Position numbers and translations under genes: made by a program
Part shown: positions 20,625-63,040 of the stretch, one piece after another
Position numbering within the stretch: the stretch's first letter is position 1
Layout: the number at the start of each line of letters is the position of its first letter
The notes under the pieces: model-generated
The model's database searches: none
What the model was told of the DNA's origin: nothing
Seen by the model: the letters and a program-made list of their open reading frames with translations, nothing else
DNA from: Kordia sp.
GTDB lineage: Bacteria; Bacteroidota; Bacteroidia; Flavobacteriales; Flavobacteriaceae
DNA: 64,000 nt
Assembly: GCF_022447245.1 (NCBI RefSeq)
Contig: NZ_JAKVBC010000004.1
Location: 62,001 to 126,000 of the forward strand
Direction of reading: 5' to 3'

Positions 20625-20840
20625 CTAAGTTCTTATCCAACTGTATATTACAAACATATAATAGTTATTATTGATAGAAATACCACAATTGTCATCTCTG
20701 TCTGTTCTAGAAAAACATAGTTCAGTTGGACAATCTTCTAAATTTCCACTTTGTCCTCCTTTAACTTCAGCTGCGTTACACATGCTAAGCTCAGAAACTT
20801 TTGTCTTGTTTAACTTTAATATTGTAACTTGTTTTGTCAT
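20625..20840 (-). CDS. Class I lanthipeptide-type RiPP precursor
   Basis: 71 residues. The leader MTKQVTILKLNKTKVSELSM to AAEVKGG has the Lys-rich LxLNKxxVSxL pattern and double glycine of flavobacterial class I lanthipeptide precursors. The core after GG starts QSGNLEDCPTELCFSRTDR and holds three Cys plus Ser/Thr for possible thioether rings. The C-terminus is Asn/Tyr-rich and unusually long. No modification or export gene is adjacent. A second, broken precursor lies 75 bp upstream on the same strand, and the terminator at 20564 follows. Confidence 0.72.
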   Translation of the reverse strand: MTKQVTILKLNKTKVSELSMCNAAEVKGGQSGNLEDCPTELCFSRTDRDDNCGISINNNYYMFVIYSWIRT

Positions 20841-20915: not shown

Positions 20916-21094
20916 TTAACAAGGTGTTGCAACTGACTCGTTAGGGCATCACCAACCTGTTAAACAACCTACTTGATTAGTATGGCAAAATGTTCCAGCC
21001 CCTGTTTTTCCCCTTTAACAGCTGCTGCTTTTTCAATACTTAATTCGGATACTACTGATTTATTTAACTTTAAATTTTTACTGTGTTTTTTCAT
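20916..21094 (-). pseudogene. Frameshifted lanthipeptide-type precursor
   Basis: From ATG 21094 the leader MKKHSKNLKLNKSVVSELSI to AAAVKG is intact and very like its neighbour. Right at the expected GG site the frame breaks in a run of four G. Adding one G gives KGGKTGAGTFCHTNQVGCL and onwards TGW, then an in-frame TGA, then CPNESVATPC and TAA. The restored peptide would be 59 residues with four Cys. One lost G plus one nonsense codon indicates a dead precursor, unless sequencing error is involved. Confidence 0.65.
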
Positions 21095-42227: not shown

Positions 42228-42472
42228 ACATTCTTAAAAACTCGAATTTATAGTGACGAAGCATGTTGGCCTTGTCAATAGAGATACTCATGCAATTAAA
42301 AATTATGAAGAAACTTGTAAGTAAGCAAACTATTAGTAGTTACTTTACGCATGTTTCATAAAGCTTCTCTAATTAGAGGTTTTTTATATAGAAAACTCCC
42401 AAAAGAAGACGACTATATTTAATTATTAGTATTTTTAGCTTCTTTATATGTATGCTAACAAAAAGAGTTTTT

Positions 42473-44161
42473 ATGATGCGCAAAGTGATTACATTTTGGA
42501 GTTGTATTGTTTTCGTATTGACATCTCTTTCTGGATTTTCACAAGAAATGCCTGAAGATGCTACGTCGGAAGAAATTTTTGATTTTATTGTTCAACACAA
42601 ATATTCCTATCCTGAACTTGCAAAAAAATATGCTCAAATTTTAGTTGCAAAAAGTAAAAAAGAGCAAGACAGTATTCATCTTTTTAATGCCTATGCACAA
42701 TGTTGTAAAATTGCCAATATTGAGGGAAATTATGAACTTGCTATTCAACATTGTGATTCTGCTATTGCAACCGCAACCGCATTAAAAAATCAACTTTTTT
42801 TAGCAGAAGTCTATCTAACAAAAGGAAATGCCGTTGTATACCTTGGAGATAATAAAAAAGCATTAGAAAATTACCTAAATACTTTAAATATAGCGAAGGA
42901 CATCAATGCTATTGAATATGAAATTGTTGCTAAGTCTAATATAGCAAAGATCAAAAGACGCATGGGTTTTTATGAAGAAGCACTCTCAATTTACAAAAAA
43001 AACACCTTATTGGCCGAACAGTATAACTTTGAAAACAAAACGATTCTCATTAATTCTTACATGGGTGTAGGTGGCACATATTTACGTTTAAATCAACCAG
43101 ATTCTACGCTTAAATACTCTAAAATAGGTTTACAAAAAAGTCTTGCAATTAACGATGATGAAGGTGTGAGTTATTTTTACATTGATATTGGTATTGCATA
43201 TTTTCTAAAAAAGGATTTTAATGTTGCTATTGACTACTTAAAAAAAGCAGAAAAAATTACGAAAGGATTGAATAATCAAAATAGACTTGCTGAAATTTAC
43301 AACTATATTGGACAATCCTATTTTAAATTAAAAAAGTATGACGAAGTAATTTCTTTTTTAAAAAATGCAGAAGCTATTGTTAATAAAAAAAATAAAGAAA
43401 TCCTTTATAATCCTCAAGAACTAGAAGATATATACTTAACACTTTCAAAAGTCTATGAACTTACTAACAATCTAGATTCATATGTTGAATATACTTCCAA
43501 ATATCTTGAATTGAAAGTTTCTAATGAAGGCGAAAATATAGAAGTTATTAAAGATTTGTATGAGACTACACGAGAAGAGAATACATTACTTTCTTCTATG
43601 ACCTCTAAATTAAGAAACAGTCTTATGTACGTTATACTATTTAGTCTTTTTTTAGTAGCATTATGTGGATATTTTGTGTGGAAATTTTTAGAAGTAAAAA
43701 AACAAAACAAAAAAACATTTGAGCAATTAGTTGCGACGATAGAATCCAAAAATTCAGAAAAAATAAAATCTGAATTTAAAATTGAAGACAAAAAAGTAGA
43801 AGCCATCCTGGAACGATTAGAAAAATTAGAAGAGTCATTATTTTTCTTAAATAGCAATTGCACATTACAAAGTTTAGCCAAAAAAGTAAAGACCAATACC
43901 AATTATTTATCAAAAATCATCAATACATACAAACAGAAAAAATTTTATGAGTACTTGAATGATTTACGTATAAAATATGTGTTAAAACGCTTGAAAGAAG
44001 ATCCTAAATTTCGTAAATACTCTATAAAGCATATAGCAGAAGAAATTGGCTATAAAAGCACCAATTCATTTACAAAATACTTTAAAGCCTCTACAAAGCT
44101 ATATCCTTCATATTATATTAAAAATCTTGAGAATACTTCTAAAAATAACACCTCAAATTAA
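42473..44161 (+). CDS. TPR-transmembrane-AraC regulator
   Basis: 562 residues from ATG 42473, which opens a signal/anchor (VITFWSCIVFVLTSLSGFSQ). About ten TPR-like helical pairs follow to residue 365 and would be periplasmic. A transmembrane helix SLMYVILFSLFLVALCGYFVWKF lies near 385-407, then a coiled coil and an AraC-type DNA-binding domain (about 455-560) with NSNCTLQSLAKKVKTNTNYLSKII and YSIKHIAEEIGYKSTNSFTKYF. It thus links a periplasmic sensor to transcription in one chain. It stands 91 bp before three RiPP precursors and is the best candidate for their control (inference). A frame upstream allows start at 42452. Confidence 0.85.
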   Translation: MMRKVITFWSCIVFVLTSLSGFSQEMPEDATSEEIFDFIVQHKYSYPELAKKYAQILVAKSKKEQDSIHLFNAYAQCCKIANIEGNYELAIQHCDSAIATATALKNQLFLAEVYLTKGNAVVYLGDNKKALENYLNTLNIAKDINAIEYEIVAKSNIAKIKRRMGFYEEALSIYKKNTLLAEQYNFENKTILINSYMGVGGTYLRLNQPDSTLKYSKIGLQKSLAINDDEGVSYFYIDIGIAYFLKKDFNVAIDYLKKAEKITKGLNNQNRLAEIYNYIGQSYFKLKKYDEVISFLKNAEAIVNKKNKEILYNPQELEDIYLTLSKVYELTNNLDSYVEYTSKYLELKVSNEGENIEVIKDLYETTREENTLLSSMTSKLRNSLMYVILFSLFLVALCGYFVWKFLEVKKQNKKTFEQLVATIESKNSEKIKSEFKIEDKKVEAILERLEKLEESLFFLNSNCTLQSLAKKVKTNTNYLSKIINTYKQKKFYEYLNDLRIKYVLKRLKEDPKFRKYSIKHIAEEIGYKSTNSFTKYFKASTKLYPSYYIKNLENTSKNNTSN

Positions 44162-44252: not shown

Positions 44253-44417
44253 ATGAAAGTAAAACATTTACAAAAAATGAAATTAAAAAAAGAAACTATC
44301 TCTCATATCAATGAAACAACAGCTATGTTACTGAAAGGCGGCACACGTGGTTCAGAAACTTCTGCAATTGACGATTCTGCTTTAATTTCGCATTGTGGTG
44401 ATATACAATGTTATTAA
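44253..44417 (+). CDS. Class I lanthipeptide-type RiPP precursor
   Basis: 54 residues from ATG 44253, too short for a standard ORF cutoff. The leader MKVKHLQKMKLKKETISHIN to AMLLKGG has the Lys-rich, LxLxKxTIS pattern and double glycine of the family. The core TRGSETSAIDDSALISHCGD ends IQCY and has two Cys with several Ser/Thr. It is the first of three tandem precursors and has its own terminator at 44440. Confidence 0.68.
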   Translation: MKVKHLQKMKLKKETISHINETTAMLLKGGTRGSETSAIDDSALISHCGDIQCY

Positions 44418-44439
44418 TTATGCATCCATAATTTAATTG

Positions 44440-44468
44440 AAAATCGGAAGCGATACTTCCGATTTTTT
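44440..44468 (+). terminator. Terminator after the first precursor
   Basis: AAAATCGGAAG and CTTCCGATTTT form an 11-bp perfect stem with loop CGATA and T-run, 23 bp behind the stop codon. Confidence 0.85.
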
Positions 44469-44613
44469 ATGTCTAATTTTTAGATTTTTCAAACTGATAT
44501 CTTACCTCAACTCCTTAAAATTTTAGTTTTTTTGCGCTACACTTTCTTTTTTTCATAAGATACGAATCATATTTTGAGATCATAAAAATTAATTAACTTC
44601 AAAAATTTTTTTT

Positions 44614-44772
44614 ATGAAAACCCACAAAGTAAAATCATTGAAATTGGTAAAAGCTTCTATAGCAAATTTAGACGCTAGCAAACAAGAAAGAATTGTCGGT
44701 GGTGGCACACGTGCTTGGACAGGTTGCCTTACGTTTAACTCTATGTGTCCAACTTCTTGCCACGCACACTAA
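44614..44772 (+). CDS. Class I lanthipeptide-type RiPP precursor, TSCHAH type
   Basis: 52 residues from ATG 44614. The leader starts MKTHKVKSLKLVKASIANLD and ends RIVGGG, matching the KSLxLxKxSIAxL pattern of flavobacterial lanthipeptide leaders. The core begins TRAWTGCLTFNSMCP and ends TSCHAH, with three Cys and several Thr/Ser. The next gene, 34 bp on, is a clear paralogue with the same tail. No maturase is adjacent. Confidence 0.75.
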   Translation: MKTHKVKSLKLVKASIANLDASKQERIVGGGTRAWTGCLTFNSMCPTSCHAH

Positions 44773-44806
44773 TCTCAACTAATTATTAACCACAAAATCA
44801 ATACCC

Positions 44807-44962
44807 ATGAAAACAAAAAAGACAAAATCATTACAATTAATTAAAGCTTCAATCGCTAGTTTAGAAACAAAAAAATCACTAAAAGTTGTAGGTGGAGTTA
44901 CGCGTATTGGAGATTGCAATAGTAGAACTTCCTTATGTATTACTTCTTGTCACGCGCACTAA
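44807..44962 (+). CDS. Class I lanthipeptide-type RiPP precursor, TSCHAH type
   Basis: 51 residues from ATG 44807. The leader MKTKKTKSLQLIKASIASLE to KVVGG is strongly similar to the preceding gene. The core VTRIGDCNSRTSLCI ends TSCHAH, sharing C-terminus and Cys spacing while the inner residues differ. Such a pair suggests duplication and drift of a core under one maturation system. Likely co-transcribed with 44614. Confidence 0.75.
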   Translation: MKTKKTKSLQLIKASIASLETKKSLKVVGGVTRIGDCNSRTSLCITSCHAH

Positions 44963-45033
44963 CATATGCATGTAGACTAAAACTTTAATCCTACTGAAAA
45001 AGAATTCAAAAAGTTTATTATTTAACGTATAGA

Positions 45034-45231
45034 GAGTTAAAAGGCAGTGGTTTTTCGGGTAGCATAATTTGTGATTCACGAGAACCTGAATTTTGTAATT
45101 TGACTTTTAACAGATGGCACTGTAATATTAGTTCTCCTAGTATTACTGTGCCTAAATGTAAATACTTTTTATCAGTAAAAAAGCTTCTCATTTTGAGAAG
45201 CTTTTACGTTATCCATAATTACTTGAGATAA
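45034..45231 (+). other. Cys-rich open frame without start, possible RiPP remnant
   Basis: A start-less frame reads ELKGSGFSGSIICDSREPEF and onward with four Cys up to PKCKYF, then runs through the hairpin at 45177 to TAA. KGSG could be a changed double-glycine site. There is no leader upstream in any frame. I list it because it is directly downstream of the precursor pair, but it may be chance. Confidence 0.2.
45177..45207 (+). terminator. Terminator of the precursor pair
   Basis: AAAAGCTTCTCA and TGAGAAGCTTTT pair perfectly around TTT, with A and T tracts. It is 215 bp behind the last precursor stop. Confidence 0.75.
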
Positions 45232-45326
45232 TTTACATGAGAATGAGTAGCATCATAAAATTTGTGTTATTCATTTGTTAATTATTATTGTTATTCAATT
45301 GCTTTTTCAATATGTATATCAAAGTA

Positions 45327-46472
45327 TTAAATTTTATTAATAATCGCAGCTGCCTTTTCGAGCGTTTCATCCGTTTTAGCGAAACAAAAACGCAATAATT
45401 TATGATCTTCTTTATTGGTATTGAATACTGAGAGCGGAATGGATGCTATTTTGTGTTCTCTTGTGAGCCTTTTAGCAAATTCCGTATCTTGTTCGTCTGT
45501 GATGGCATCATACGACAATACCTGAAAGTATGTTCCTTGTGAAGGTATCCATGTAAAACGTGAATCTTTAATTTCATTGAGAAAGAAATCTCTTTTTTCT
45601 TGAAAAAATGCAGGAAGCTGAATATAGTGCTCAGGTTTTTTTAAGTATTTTCCAATCCCAATTTGCATCGGATGATTTACAGAAAATACGTTGAACTGAT
45701 GCACTTTTTTGTATTCATCCATCAATTCTTTTGGAGCTACACAATAGCCCATTTTCCAGCCTGTATTGTGAAATGTTTTTCCAAAAGAAGCTGTAATAAA
45801 TGTGCGTTCGGCTAGTTTGGGAAATAAGGCTGCGCTTTGATGTTGTTCACCATCAAAAATAATGTGTTCGTAAACTTCATCACTCAACAGAATGATGTTT
45901 GTATTTTCTAAAATCGATGCTAATTCCAACATATCTTCTTTTGAAAATACTGTGCCACTTGGATTATGTGGCGTATTGATAATCATCATTTTTGTTTTTG
46001 AAGAAATGTTGCTTCTCACTTCATTCCAATTCACTGAAAATTCTTTTCCTTTCAACTGAATCGACACTACTTTTCCTCCATGTGCTTCCACAGCAGGCGC
46101 ATAACAATCATACGCAGGCGTAAATATGATGACTTCATCATTAGGACGTACAAAGGCACTTACAATGGTAAAAATAGCTTGTGTTGCTCCTGCTGTCACC
46201 ACAACTTCTGTATCTGGATTATAGTTTCTATGATACATATATTCCATCTTTTCGGCGATAGCTTCTCGTAAAATACTAGCACCTGACATTGGTGCATATT
46301 GATTGTAGTTTTCGCGCAAAGCTTGCTGTATCATTTCAATCAATACAGGATCGGAAGGGAAATTTGGAAATCCTTGTGCTAAATTGAGCGCATTTTCTTT
46401 GGCTGATAATTGGCTCATTACCGTAAATATAGTCGTTCCTACATTGGGAAGTTTGGATGTATGCTGGATCAT
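45327..46472 (-). CDS. PLP-dependent (methionine-type) aminotransferase
   Basis: 381 residues of fold type I, subgroup Ib. NLAQGFPNFPSDP near residue 30, AGATQAIFTIVSAF near 95, NTPHNPSGTVFSKED near 168, and the PLP-Lys segment ITASFGKTFHNTGWKMGY near 225-240 are visible. The closest well-known relatives are YbdL methionine and kynurenine-oxoglutarate aminotransferases. It is convergent to the RiPP genes and is probably unrelated to them. A G/T repeat sits directly upstream of its start. Confidence 0.9.
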   Translation of the reverse strand: MIQHTSKLPNVGTTIFTVMSQLSAKENALNLAQGFPNFPSDPVLIEMIQQALRENYNQYAPMSGASILREAIAEKMEYMYHRNYNPDTEVVVTAGATQAIFTIVSAFVRPNDEVIIFTPAYDCYAPAVEAHGGKVVSIQLKGKEFSVNWNEVRSNISSKTKMMIINTPHNPSGTVFSKEDMLELASILENTNIILLSDEVYEHIIFDGEQHQSAALFPKLAERTFITASFGKTFHNTGWKMGYCVAPKELMDEYKKVHQFNVFSVNHPMQIGIGKYLKKPEHYIQLPAFFQEKRDFFLNEIKDSRFTWIPSQGTYFQVLSYDAITDEQDTEFAKRLTREHKIASIPLSVFNTNKEDHKLLRFCFAKTDETLEKAAAIINKI

Positions 46473-46504
46473 TTTTTGGGTTTTGGGTTTTGAGTTTTGG
46501 GTTG
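46473..46504. repeat. TTTTGGG-type simple repeat at the aminotransferase start
   Basis: Directly before the ATG (minus strand) the plus strand reads four units of TTTTGGG/TTTTGAG. The mRNA leader of the aminotransferase would be CCCAAAA-rich. Confidence 0.7.
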
Positions 46505-46886
46505 TCTTTAATACTTTTTAAATCAAAAAATAAGCTGGTAAACTCATAAACTTTTCAACTTCTTAGTTGTTGATTCGTTAATCTACCAATTTATTTAATG
46601 GTTATTAAAAATACCTTTTTGTTCCCTTTTTGTAACGAATTCATAAATATTTTTTTGTGACACATAATTTTCTGTGAACTCTAATTATTATACAATTCAT
46701 AATTTAAAATTCAACATTTAGAATTTATTATTAAAAGTCGTCAATTTGAATGGTTCTGCGAAATGAAACTTAGAAAAATATGCATCTTGAAACACTTTCT
46801 TAAACATTAGATTACTACGGTAAACCCGTAACTTACTCTATAAGATATTACGTAGTATTACACTGATAACCATAAACTTATAAATT
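46505..46886 (+). other. Gene-free stretch before the precursor at 46887
   Basis: AT-rich DNA of 382 bp. I see no ORF with a family match and no clear TAnnTTTG box. It presumably holds the promoter of the precursor that follows. Confidence 0.35.
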
Positions 46887-47090
46887 ATGAAAAAAAGAAA
46901 ACTTACCGCTTTACAGTTAAACAAAAAGTCTATTTCTACATTTGCAAACAATGCAATTACTGGTGGTGATGATAGTAGATCAACTGGTTTTACACGATTA
47001 GATGCCTGTAATACTAAAGATGTTATTAGATGCTTGACGGGTGATGCCTGTCCAACTGTATTTGGATGTCCATCTTTTGTAAACTGTTAA
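46887..47090 (+). CDS. Double-glycine RiPP precursor
   Basis: 67 residues. The leader MKKRKLTALQLNKKSISTFA to AITGG follows the LxLNKKSIS pattern of the family. The core starts DDSRSTGFTRLDACNTKDV and holds five Cys, ending CPSFVNC. It is the most Cys-rich and longest core in the window. It lies upstream of its own terminator and outside any operon. Confidence 0.7.
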   Translation: MKKRKLTALQLNKKSISTFANNAITGGDDSRSTGFTRLDACNTKDVIRCLTGDACPTVFGCPSFVNC

Positions 47091-57284: not shown

Positions 57285-57447
57285 ATAAATAACAGTTTTT
57301 ATGCTTTTATACTTCATTCAAGTATGTTTGGCATTTTTTGACGATAAACATAGCATTAGCATCATTTTATATTTTTTTAGCATTGCAAATTCTTAAAGTA
57401 AGAAAGTTTACTTATTTTTAAAAAAATCTTACTTGATTCCACTTTCA

Positions 57448-58341
57448 ATGAATATCTATATTCTATCTATTAGTTCCCGAATTTATTCTACGAATAGATT
57501 GTATCATGAAGCTGCCAAGAAAGGACACAATGTTAGAATCGTCGATCATACAAAATGTGCTGTATTACTTGGTGAGGAAGCAAAACCCCAAATTTATTTT
57601 GGTTCCGAAAATATTACAAATGGCGCACATGCCATTATTCCACGTATAGGAACTTCCGTAACACGACATGGTTCTGCGATAGTAAAACAGTTTGAAATGA
57701 ATGGCGTGTTTACGACAGCAAAGTCGCTAGGTATTATCCGTTCGCGAAATAAACTTCGTACTATGCAAATTTTAGCAAGAAAGCGCATTCCTATTCCGAA
57801 AACTTTGTTTGCGAAAGATACTTCTAATATTAAGGAACATATTGAATTGCTTGGTGGCGCTCCAATTATTATTAAGCTTCAAGAAGGAACTCAAGGACTC
57901 GGTGTGATGATTGCAGATAGTAAGAAATCGGCAAAATCCATTATTGAATCTTTGTATAATATGAATGTAAATATTATTATGCAAGAGTTTATTGAGGAAG
58001 CCAACGGGCAAGATATTCGCGTTTATATTGTGGGAAATAAGATTGTGGCTGCTATGATGCGTAGTAGTGGCGATGAAGATTTTAGAAGTAATGTACATCG
58101 CGGAGGAACAACAGAATCCGTAACCTTGACACAGTTCGAAAAGAAGATTGCTATTCATACAGCAAAAGTGTTAGGTTTGCCTGTTTGCGGTGTGGATATT
58201 ATTCGTTCAAAACGTGGCCCTTTGGTGATTGAAGCCAATTCTTCCGCAGGTTTGGAAGGGATTGAAGCACATACAAGAGTGAATGTGGCTGGTGAGATTA
58301 TTAAATATGTAGAAAAGAATGCTCGAAAATTCAGAAAATAA
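57448..58341 (+). CDS. rimK: RimK-family ATP-grasp glutamate ligase
   Basis: 297 residues from ATG 57448; a TTG 15 bp upstream is an unlikely alternative. MNIYILSISSRIYSTNRLYHEA is the RimK start. The ATP-grasp domain shows PIIIKLQEGTQGLGVMIADS near residue 145 and VCGVDIIRSKRGPLVIEANSSAGLEGIE near 250. RimK adds glutamate to the C-terminus of ribosomal protein S6 in E. coli; relatives modify other proteins or small molecules. The gene overlaps the following hydrolase by 23 bp, which points to joint function. Confidence 0.93.
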   Translation: MNIYILSISSRIYSTNRLYHEAAKKGHNVRIVDHTKCAVLLGEEAKPQIYFGSENITNGAHAIIPRIGTSVTRHGSAIVKQFEMNGVFTTAKSLGIIRSRNKLRTMQILARKRIPIPKTLFAKDTSNIKEHIELLGGAPIIIKLQEGTQGLGVMIADSKKSAKSIIESLYNMNVNIIMQEFIEEANGQDIRVYIVGNKIVAAMMRSSGDEDFRSNVHRGGTTESVTLTQFEKKIAIHTAKVLGLPVCGVDIIRSKRGPLVIEANSSAGLEGIEAHTRVNVAGEIIKYVEKNARKFRK

Positions 58342-59284
58342 GACACTTACTATTCACGGAGAAACTGTGGCGCCCGGAGAAGCAAAATGGATTAAGATTC
58401 CTATTGATCGTTTGCCTACTGGAACCTTGATTGATATTCCTGTGTATGTATTTAACGCAAAAGAAGCTGGGTCAACATTATTGGTACAAGGTGGTTTGCA
58501 TGGAGATGAGATTAATGGTGTGGAAATTATCCGCAGAATGCTGTTTGAAGAACTTTTTAAAGTGAAACGTGGCGCTGTGATCGTATTACCATTGTTGAAT
58601 ATTTTTGGGTTTATTCACTTTTCACGACAAGTGCCCGATGGAAAAGATGTGAATCGTAGTTTTCCAGGTGTTAAAAATGGTTCTTTAGCTTCACGAATTG
58701 CTTATAAAGTGACGAATGAAGTGTTGCCACAAGTAGATTTTGGAATTGATTTACATACAGGTGGTGCACAACGTCATAATCATCCACAGATTCGTTATAC
58801 CGGAGATTTGCCTGAGAGCAAAACGTTGGCAGAAGTGTTTAATGCGCCTTTTTATTTTGCGACTACTTTGATTGAACGATCGTTTCGAAAGACAGCTTAT
58901 GACCGAAAGATTCCAATTATTGTGTATGAAGGTGGCGAAAGTATGCGTTTTGATGAATATTCGATTAAGGAAGGGATTCAAGGTGTGTTGAATGTGATGA
59001 AATACGCCAAAATGATTGATAAAATTGACCCAATGTTGATTGAACGTGAGGAAAGCGAATTCATTACGAAACGCAAATGGTTACGCGCGCCAACAGCTGG
59101 AATGTTTGTACCGCAAGTATTGAATGGGGGTTCTATTGAAAAAGGAGAAGTTTTAGGTTTTGTGACTGATACGTTTGCTAATTATTGTGAAGAAGTGAAA
59201 GCTCCATATAATGGTTTTGTGTTTTGTATTAATAACCAAGCTGTTGTGAATCAAGGTGATGCTTTGTTTCATGTTGGTTTTTAG
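58319..59284 (+). CDS. Succinylglutamate desuccinylase/aspartoacylase-family zinc hydrolase
   Basis: 321 residues. GGLHGDEINGVEIIRR gives the HxxE zinc ligands and GIDLHTGGAQRHNHPQIRY the third His, followed by IPIIVYEGGESMRFDEY with the catalytic Glu. A C-terminal beta domain (RAPTAGMFVPQVLNGG, then EEVKAPYNGFVFC) is lipoyl-like. Family members remove acyl groups from amino acids or from peptide ends. Overlap with rimK suggests a ligase/hydrolase pair acting on the same glutamylated or acylated target. Confidence 0.9.
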   Translation: MLENSENKTLTIHGETVAPGEAKWIKIPIDRLPTGTLIDIPVYVFNAKEAGSTLLVQGGLHGDEINGVEIIRRMLFEELFKVKRGAVIVLPLLNIFGFIHFSRQVPDGKDVNRSFPGVKNGSLASRIAYKVTNEVLPQVDFGIDLHTGGAQRHNHPQIRYTGDLPESKTLAEVFNAPFYFATTLIERSFRKTAYDRKIPIIVYEGGESMRFDEYSIKEGIQGVLNVMKYAKMIDKIDPMLIEREESEFITKRKWLRAPTAGMFVPQVLNGGSIEKGEVLGFVTDTFANYCEEVKAPYNGFVFCINNQAVVNQGDALFHVGF

Positions 59285-61208: not shown

Positions 61209-62888
61209 CTAAATGAATTGGGACTCGTATGGGTGTTTTTCCCGAAATGCCGTAGGTGACATTCCTGTGTGTTTTTTGAAAGAATTATAAAAAGCTGATT
61301 TTGAATTGAACCCAGCTTCTAACCCAATAGATAATACAGGATATTCTACAAAAGCAGGATGCGATAGTTTGGACTTTATTTCTTTGATACGATAACTATT
61401 GACAAAATCTGAAAAGTTATGCCCACTTAACGCATTGATTACTTGTGAAAGATAGTTTGCGCTAATATTAATCTCCTTGGAAAGTGTAGCAAGTTTTATT
61501 TCAGGATCTCGATAGCGCTTTTCTTCTTCCATGAGCGCACAAATTTCCTTATAGTATGCATTATCGTCCGTAATGCTGATTCCTTTTTTATGCTGAAGCT
61601 GTATGAGTTTCTTTTCTGTGAGTTTGGCAATGAGTTGAAATAAATACAAGTGGTTTTCTGTAAAGAAATTACGCTCCGAATGTTCGGCATCCAAAACACC
61701 TTTGAGTGTTCCTTCTATATAGATAGGAACTGCTAATTCGGATAAGCGTGCTTTGTCATCAATAATATAGCGTTTGTCTTTACTTGTATCTTTTATGAGT
61801 TCATAGTTTCCAGTTTTAGCCACACTTCCTACAATTCCTTTTCCAACAGGAATATCTTTGGGTTGATGAATTTCAAAAGCATCTTGTTTTTTGTTTCCAA
61901 AAGCAGCTTCTTGTATTAAAACTTTTCGTTTTTCGTCTAAAAGATACAAGACACAATCTTCTAATTTTAGTTTGGAGACACAGTTTTCTAGAATGTCCCA
62001 AAGTACTTCCTTCGTTTTATTTTTGTCAAATAAAGATGTGGCGAAATAACTCAGAATAGCAATTACTTGCGATTGATTTTGTCGTAATACTTGTAACACT
62101 TTTGGTTCAAACAATGTATCTAAGCCAGAAAGATGGAACACTTTTCCTTCTTCATTTCTTTCTTGTCGAATTTTGTCTAGGTGCATCGTACTTTTCACAT
62201 AGAACAAGTAGTAACACGCCAAATACGCAATCCATAATGGATAGTAATTATGATTTCCACTAACATTACTGTTAGTTTTGATATACAAAAGTGTCAATAA
62301 CCAAAAAACACTCAGTAAAATGAGCGTAACATAGATGTTTTTTAACCATTTTGTTTTACGAATTACAGCGTGATAAGACAGTTCGCCCAAGCTCTTTTCA
62401 TAGTTTTTGATGATGTTGTAATTCCAAATTCCTACTATAAAAGTGAAAAGTAAGGCTAGATTTTCATTCCATTCCATGTGAATGTTTCCAATGGTTTCTC
62501 GAGAAAATATCGAATAATCTACAAATACATTGATCTTTATAACTGTGTAAATTAAAAAGAATGCCACAAACGGAATGAGCAAGTAGTATTTGTATTTTTT
62601 AAAGAGTTGTTCTTTTTGCAAATACGAACAGGTAAACGCTGTAAAAATAACAGGCGCTAAAAATTCTAATGGAAAAAAGAACAGCATGACAGCTTTATAT
62701 TGTTTTGCAATTCCAATATCAAACGAAATGTATTGCAGAATCGCAATGGCCGTAATCATCAAAAACCAAAAGAAGTACCGCGAAGTTTTGTCCTGCGTTT
62801 TTTTTATGAATATATGATACGTCACCAACACTAAAAGTCCAATAGCGCCAATAAATATGGTTGTATTATATAAATTCCAATCTAACAT
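61209..62888 (-). CDS. Membrane GAF-AraC transcriptional regulator
   Basis: 559 residues from ATG 62888, where a membrane start MLDWNLYNTTIFIGAIGLL fits; an ATG 33 bp upstream is possible. Seven hydrophobic helices (about 1-235) are followed by a GAF-like domain (about 265-430, with CVLYLLDEKRKVLIQEAAF and VGKGIVGSVAKTG) and an AraC-type DNA-binding domain (about 450-555) with SANYLSQVINALSGHNFSDF and GFNSKSAFYNSFKKHTGMSP. It joins membrane, small-molecule sensing and DNA binding in one protein. No target is evident; the adjacent serine hydrolase pseudogene might have been one. Confidence 0.88.
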   Translation of the reverse strand: MLDWNLYNTTIFIGAIGLLVLVTYHIFIKKTQDKTSRYFFWFLMITAIAILQYISFDIGIAKQYKAVMLFFFPLEFLAPVIFTAFTCSYLQKEQLFKKYKYYLLIPFVAFFLIYTVIKINVFVDYSIFSRETIGNIHMEWNENLALLFTFIVGIWNYNIIKNYEKSLGELSYHAVIRKTKWLKNIYVTLILLSVFWLLTLLYIKTNSNVSGNHNYYPLWIAYLACYYLFYVKSTMHLDKIRQERNEEGKVFHLSGLDTLFEPKVLQVLRQNQSQVIAILSYFATSLFDKNKTKEVLWDILENCVSKLKLEDCVLYLLDEKRKVLIQEAAFGNKKQDAFEIHQPKDIPVGKGIVGSVAKTGNYELIKDTSKDKRYIIDDKARLSELAVPIYIEGTLKGVLDAEHSERNFFTENHLYLFQLIAKLTEKKLIQLQHKKGISITDDNAYYKEICALMEEEKRYRDPEIKLATLSKEINISANYLSQVINALSGHNFSDFVNSYRIKEIKSKLSHPAFVEYPVLSIGLEAGFNSKSAFYNSFKKHTGMSPTAFREKHPYESQFI

Positions 62889-63040
62889 CTTTAAGTAGGT
62901 TTGGTTACTTAAAGATACCAAGAAAATCCAATGATACCCTTGATTTTCTTTTGGTTGGTTGTAAATTTTGTATGAGTTGAAGGTTTCTTTTAGTTCCGTA
63001 CTATTTTTTGTTCTAAAGTACGTTGTCGCGGCTTGTGTTT

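Follow-up and report, generated by a model that had tools for sequence, protein, structure and literature searches.

A dispersed family of class I lanthipeptide-type precursors in Kordia, probably served in trans by one split LanB set

The window analysed here is a 64-kb stretch of a Kordia sp. genome (positions 62,001 to 126,000 of contig NZ_JAKVBC010000004.1, termed C34:62001-126000), which contains six short open reading frames (ORFs) encoding putative precursors of ribosomally synthesized and post-translationally modified peptides (RiPPs). Four of them lie on the plus strand, where the original prediction had placed four short genes with a common leader, and all four are intact. The first (44253..44417) encodes a 54-residue precursor with a leader extending to GG30 and a core with two Cys; it starts 95 nt past the last codon of a regulator gene (42452..44161, plus strand), with which it forms a cassette. 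It is followed by a 52-residue precursor (44614..44772) and its 51-residue tandem relative (44807..44962), the cores of which both end in SCHAH, and by a 67-residue precursor (46887..47090) whose core has five Cys. Two further genes had been predicted at 20.6-21.1 kb, and both are present on the minus strand with the leader. The one at 20625..20840 encodes a 71-residue precursor with a leader to GG29, three Cys in the core and a fourth in the leader; the 41-residue ORF at 20969..21094, however, is degenerate, retaining the leader but only a 12-residue core without Cys. In total, five of the six ORFs are intact.

All six ORFs share the leader pattern MKK…LxLxKxxIS…GG, which is of the class I lanthipeptide type, as had been proposed, and the L1a and L1b leader models match the window precursors. 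The NCBIfam model NF038153 (lant_leader_L1a) scores the six at 13.8-21.8 bits against a cut-off of 22, and the 44614 precursor reaches 22.1 bits when its neighbours in frame are included. A second model, A1, is a 27-position leader profile derived from 88 leaders of this genome, the six window leaders among them. At a threshold of at least 12 bits, A1 singles out exactly these six among the window ATG ORFs of 36-180 residues (27-41 bits), and finds none in 20 Markov-simulated windows. The leader model for RiPPs modified by radical S-adenosylmethionine (radical-SAM) enzymes, TIGR04149, gives 19.2 bits for the best window ORF and 9.7 for another, both below its cut-off of 25. Pfam searches with the six precursors returned no useful family and one chance-level match (E 0.21).

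The window had been described as devoid of LanB/LanC, YcaO, radical-SAM and C39 genes, and our searches agree. Genome-wide searches place no LanB_N, LanB_C, LanC or C39 match inside it, and Pfam scans of its 48 ORFs of at least 110 residues (the regulator at E<=0.001, the 47 others at E<=1e-6) found neither YcaO nor radical-SAM families; a CxxxCxxC motif is present in none of the 48. At 57433-59281 the window also carries a pair of genes, RimK-like ATP-grasp and AstE/AspA-type in this order, that resembles housekeeping genes.

The locus is conserved in the genus. All 11 Kordia genomes have the same gene arrangement: the regulator, the first precursor, then one to four precursors with an SC(H/V/W)xH ending, and the aminotransferase; the regulator is at the same position and 63-77% identical. 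The 44253 precursor has a counterpart in all ten other genomes, with cores ending in Cxx(I/V/Y)xC(Y/F), and the precursors at the place of 44614 occur in all 11, in one to four copies. A precursor with a core similar to that of 46887 was found at the same place in four of the ten other genomes (five of 11 including this one).

The candidate maturation genes lie elsewhere in the genome, which is 5.24 Mb in size and 99.75% complete. The search for dehydratase, cyclase and C39 genes suggested by the original prediction led to another contig (C1), on which the genes for LanC, LanB_N, LanB_C, HlyD and a C39 ATP-binding cassette (C39-ABC) exporter are found together. The genome has a single protein with the LanB_N glutamylation domain (PF04738, E 3.1e-151) and a single protein with the LanB_C elimination domain (PF14028, E 3.3e-72), the genes of which adjoin each other. 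Beside them is the LanC gene (PF05147, E 4.3e-44), the product of which has the motifs SHG (196), WCYG (263) and CHG (314) that we take to be those of the zinc site. Structural comparison aligned the greater part of LanB_N with 9g04, NisB (4wd9) and the lantibiotic dehydratase 5ehk, and LanB_C with 9g04 and 5ehk over ~120 residues; the C1 LanC matches solved structures of LanC-like proteins. A C-gap-CH motif of LanC also appears in PMC10352776. Downstream of the LanB genes follow a regulator of the same type as that of the window, precursors, an HlyD gene and the C39-ABC exporter gene (C1:236653-238860), the last two lying ~3-7 kb further on and the HlyD gene being partly read. The order LanC, LanB_N, LanB_C, regulator, precursor(s), HlyD and C39 is the same in eight of eight Kordia loci, and the LanB shares 97% identity with its counterpart in an uncultured Kordia and 94% with the K. 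algicida OT-1 protein.

There are two more LanC matches in the genome. One belongs to a locus, presumably of class V, at L204:8283-14702 (contig C14, ~14.3-20.7 kb), which encodes LanC, a HopA1-domain protein, an APH-like kinase and an S8 protease. It also has ORFs of 282 and 140 residues that may be precursors, and a 160-residue AraC homolog alongside. This second LanC was considered as a partner of the dispersed precursors and is not supported in that role; the class V-like locus has precursor-like ORFs of its own. The third match (L205:4325-6259, contig C5) is interrupted by a stop and followed by a nucleotidyltransferase-domain gene; LanC together with a nucleotidyltransferase is reported for Kordia in PMC11118758.

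Leaders of the window type are scattered over the whole genome, on a scale beyond what the original prediction had observed. NF038153 matches 72 places at E<=0.1 among the best 150 of 193 candidates, reaching its cut-off at 20 of them, and has no match in 14 control genomes. With A1, all of the 150 candidates scored (the best 150 of 290) match at E<=1, so our number of precursors is a minimum. At this threshold, the matches in six control genomes from other genera number 0, 1, 0, 3, 3 and 3. We catalogued 150 distinct leader ORFs at 12 bits or more in the sequence stretches retrieved around the matches, which hold all but one (C3:117385) of the 72 NF038153 places, and only one of 4033 residue-shuffled ORFs reaches the same score. 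Of the catalogued ORFs, 140 have at least 40 residues, and 131 of these carry GG (126) or GA after the leader and are termed full-length here; the 19 others are 10 ORFs shorter than 40 residues and nine without GG/GA. The full-length precursors are spread over 37 contigs, in 79 places separated by 5 kb or more, 67 of them being on the plus and 64 on the minus strand, with a median leader of 27 and a median core of 39 residues. Cys is concentrated in the cores (609 in 5509 residues) as against the leaders (2 in 3552). All 131 cores have Cys plus Ser/Thr, and 123 have at least two Cys. Upstream of 130 precursor genes, A is found at -12 in 93% and at -3 in 84%, a signature that stands without position-by-position comparison with other genes. 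Beyond this translation signal, no 8-mer among those present in at least 12 of the 130 upstream regions is more than ~4-fold enriched relative to 73 background genes.

On contig C16 (61.0-64.4 kb; L179/L020/L023), 12 catalogued precursors, 11 of them full-length with GG/GA, form a tandem array on one strand within ~3.4 kb. At L008:1192-1482 and L050:984-1762 the cores are built from short repeats, for example runs of CPxDxxA and of NGCPP/NCPT, which may point to expansion through slippage or recombination.

The other Kordia genomes present the same picture. At E<=1e-3 and among the best 150 candidates per genome, A1 finds at least 149, 142, 143, 125, 150, 150, 112, 150, 127 and 147 matches in ten of them, including K. 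algicida (127), K. zhangzhouensis (112) and K. periserrulae (142), and each has one LanB copy. Three of the ten are single-contig assemblies, so the scatter does not stem from fragmented assembly; the matches listed for K. algicida extend from ~0.17 to 4.69 Mb, and its LanB is at 3.42 Mb. Matches are far fewer in other genera. The named-organism counts come from 11 genomes selected for holding a LanB relative (11 of 20 LanB loci), and the eight of these outside Kordia have 3-16 matches at the same threshold: Leptobacterium 16, Lacinutrix 15, Aquimarina 11, 7 and 5, Psychroserpens 6 and 3, and an uncultured Flavobacteriaceae 3. The listed matches of Leptobacterium and Lacinutrix are on more than one contig, so a modest degree of scatter also occurs outside Kordia. 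In a set of 60 genomes, LanB_N was found in six of the 49 outside Kordia, and the L1a leader at E<=0.01 in four of the same 49, with one to five matches. At the LanB loci of other flavobacterial genera, all 11 have one to seven A1 leader ORFs within the 16-22 kb stretch. In Aquimarina and Psychroserpens the same leaders lie beside LanB relatives in ordinary clusters, which ties the leader to the enzyme. Most simply, Kordia would have retained one enzyme set while the substrates of an ancestral cluster became numerous and dispersed.

The regulator gene at 42452..44161, likewise beyond the original observations, encodes a 569-residue membrane protein with tetratricopeptide repeats (TPR) and an AraC-type helix-turn-helix (HTH), as judged from Pfam, hydropathy and AlphaFold. 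It comprises an N-terminal hydrophobic segment, a TPR superhelix (~39-360), a transmembrane helix (~390-410) and an HTH_18 domain (475-557); the AlphaFold model has a mean predicted local distance difference test (pLDDT) score of 86 and a predicted template modelling (pTM) score of 0.59. Structural similarity search returned TPR superhelices, with LGN first and the Rap pheromone receptors from rank 33; these matches of the model bear on the fold only. The genome encodes 22 homologs of the regulator, 21 at E<=3e-24 and one broken copy, and 20 of the 22, that of the window included, are followed on the same strand, at a distance of 80-200 nt, by a leader-like ORF. Of these 20 ORFs, 17 reach at least 12 bits; the other three are a truncated ORF, one with a score of 9.8, and one identified by eye. 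The two regulators without such an ORF are C13:2392 and that of the class V-like locus. By contrast, none of 12 weaker homologs examined has a leader-like ORF downstream; four weak matches (C4:79249, C1:10683, C1:67076 and C57:12127) belong to neither group. In Kordia and Aquimarina loci, 36 of 39 regulators, two of the 39 being from this genome, have a leader ORF (loose pattern) within 420 nt. The window also encodes an AraC-type HTH protein with GAF domains (61212-62921), which differs from the cassette regulators in having no catalogued precursor downstream.

The linkage suggests that the TPR-AraC regulator probably controls its directly downstream precursor locally. It is conceivable, although we regard it as doubtful, that these regulators act as receptors in the membrane, each sensing the mature lanthipeptide of the gene next downstream, and form ~20 parallel signalling circuits that would share one maturase and exporter and activate the wider precursor library. 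Across 33 cassettes, regulator and peptide distances do correlate (sensor-core 0.65, HTH-core 0.80); specific co-variation of sensor and core is unsupported, as the partial sensor-core correlation given the HTH is 0.005. The TPR region and core thus show no co-variation beyond the shared history of the cassette, which speaks against a receptor role. Since the sensor part adds nothing beyond the HTH, receptor-ligand pairing is put forward as a hypothesis.

Altogether, the window ORFs are probably class I lanthipeptide precursors within a dispersed family of more than 100 members, served in trans by a single split LanB set, some of them with a local TPR-AraC regulator. The assignment to class I is based on both LanB domains, a LanC with its motifs, and leaders followed by Ser/Thr/Cys cores. 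In the proposed mechanism, the LxLxKxxIS…GG leaders are probably recognized by the only LanB of the genome, which would dehydrate the cores with its glutamylation protein and its distinct elimination protein; thioether rings would be closed by the adjacent LanC, and the nearby C39-ABC exporter with HlyD would cleave at GG and export the products. One apparatus would thus be shared by well over 100 chromosomally scattered precursors. The original suggestion of scattered precursors served in trans gains support from the presence of one split class I set for 150 leader ORFs, and from the LanB relatives of other genera that have the same leaders locally; the processing itself we infer.

Several observations weigh against this interpretation. 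The window ORFs score below the cut-off of NF038153, and A1 was trained on this same genome. Only one Cys is present in eight of the 131 full-length cores and none in one cassette ORF, and an 8-kb Aminicenantes locus has LanB with no leader ORF. In all 19 reciprocal-best paralog pairs the leaders are closer to each other at the DNA level than the cores (medians 79% versus 58%), a point in favour of the interpretation, but choosing the pairs on total similarity tends to bring together matching leaders, and random pairs have the same tilt (66% versus 48%). Besides the second LanC of the class V-like locus, the genome has six C39 matches, five in addition to the C1 exporter, so cyclization or export could be divided among them.

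The six C39 matches also favour an alternative in which the dispersed ORFs are unmodified double-glycine peptides, such as microcins or pheromones, that are cut by C39 and secreted, with only the LanB-adjacent copies being lanthionine substrates. The cleavage site itself, with GG or GA in 131 of the 140 ORFs of at least 40 residues and GG in 126, would suit such peptides. However, the dispersed and LanB-adjacent ORFs have the LxLxKxxIS leader in common, which is more than a GG site, Cys plus Ser/Thr is present in every full-length core, and leader ORFs adjoin LanB in other genera; we therefore regard this alternative as unlikely. Slightly less likely still is that other RiPP enzymes, for instance of the radical-SAM type, act on all or part of the dispersed set. 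TIGR04149 leaders look alike, as reflected in the 19.2 and 9.7 bits of two window ORFs, and PMC11118758 assigns both radical-SAM-modified RiPPs and lanthipeptides to Kordia, with enzymes within ten genes. Yet the TIGR04149 scores stay below 25, and no window ORF of at least 110 residues has CxxxCxxC. Moreover, the only families that recur at least three times beside dispersed precursors are the precursors themselves, the TPR-AraC regulator and one three-member group of mixed ORFs, with no recurrent enzyme family, in retrieved flanks that cover a median of 45% of 2.5 kb per side (shorter side median 0.9 kb) and with no genome-wide radical-SAM/YcaO search made. This short coverage also counts against the shared LanB set, and on its account we rate the involvement of other enzymes marginally higher than we otherwise would. 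That the family consists mostly of decaying, non-functional duplicates, as the 10 of 150 catalogued ORFs shorter than 40 residues and the stops in several matches might suggest, is very improbable in view of the 131 full-length ORFs, the sharp -12/-3 signature of 130 genes and the retention of the window locus with recognizable cores in 11 of 11 Kordia genomes.

The shared LanB set is best read as a prochlorosin-like organization, with one enzyme and many scattered substrates, built on class I enzymes. The prochlorosins and synechococsins of marine picocyanobacteria (ProcM/SyncM) likewise have one promiscuous synthetase and many dispersed precursors, 83 in Synechococcus MIT9509 according to PMC10783134. 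The gene layout in Kordia, a single synthetase set and many distant precursors, corresponds to this organization, with action in trans being presumed. The components differ: prochlorosins depend on a class II LanM and Nif11-family precursors, whereas Kordia has split class I LanB plus LanC, Bacteroidota-type GG leaders, more precursors, and regulator-precursor cassettes. The Kordia peptides accordingly fall outside the prochlorosin family, the dehydratase found being PF04738/PF14028, with no genome-wide LanM search made. Rap-type peptide receptors have a TPR superhelix, as predicted for the Kordia regulator, whose gene lies beside that of a small leader peptide; the Kordia regulator adds a transmembrane helix and an AraC-type HTH, and its model best matches eukaryotic TPR proteins, LGN among them. 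Pinensins are Bacteroidota products that also involve a split LanB. They come from an ordinary cluster and are not known to form a dispersed family. The class I lanthipeptides of Bacteroidetes with LxLxKx5L leaders, GG and C39, sought within seven genes of LanC in PMC7268733, have the leader motif, GG end and C39 protease in common with the Kordia system; most Kordia precursors, however, are far from LanC. PMC11118758 predicts up to 176 RiPP precursors in one Bacteroidota genome and singles out Kordia as RiPP-rich, and its main text does not use the terms "in trans" and "scattered". Two further papers report an inferred Kordia-specific proteusin-like cluster (PMC10734526) and nine clusters, including lanthipeptide, in K. 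antarctica (PMC7477175). We found neither a dispersed class I library nor a TPR-AraC cassette described in print, which is weak evidence of absence given that most subscription journals and the supplements lay outside the coverage.

If true, the Kordia system would parallel the prochlorosins within class I, its precursors per genome exceeding the 83 of the largest picocyanobacterial case that we found. Searches for maturases within a few genes would overlook such dispersed precursors. The TPR-AraC regulator family would mark a subset of the precursors, and there are genera outside Kordia where these leaders remain clustered. The Kordia precursors would then represent natural substrate libraries for one split LanB.

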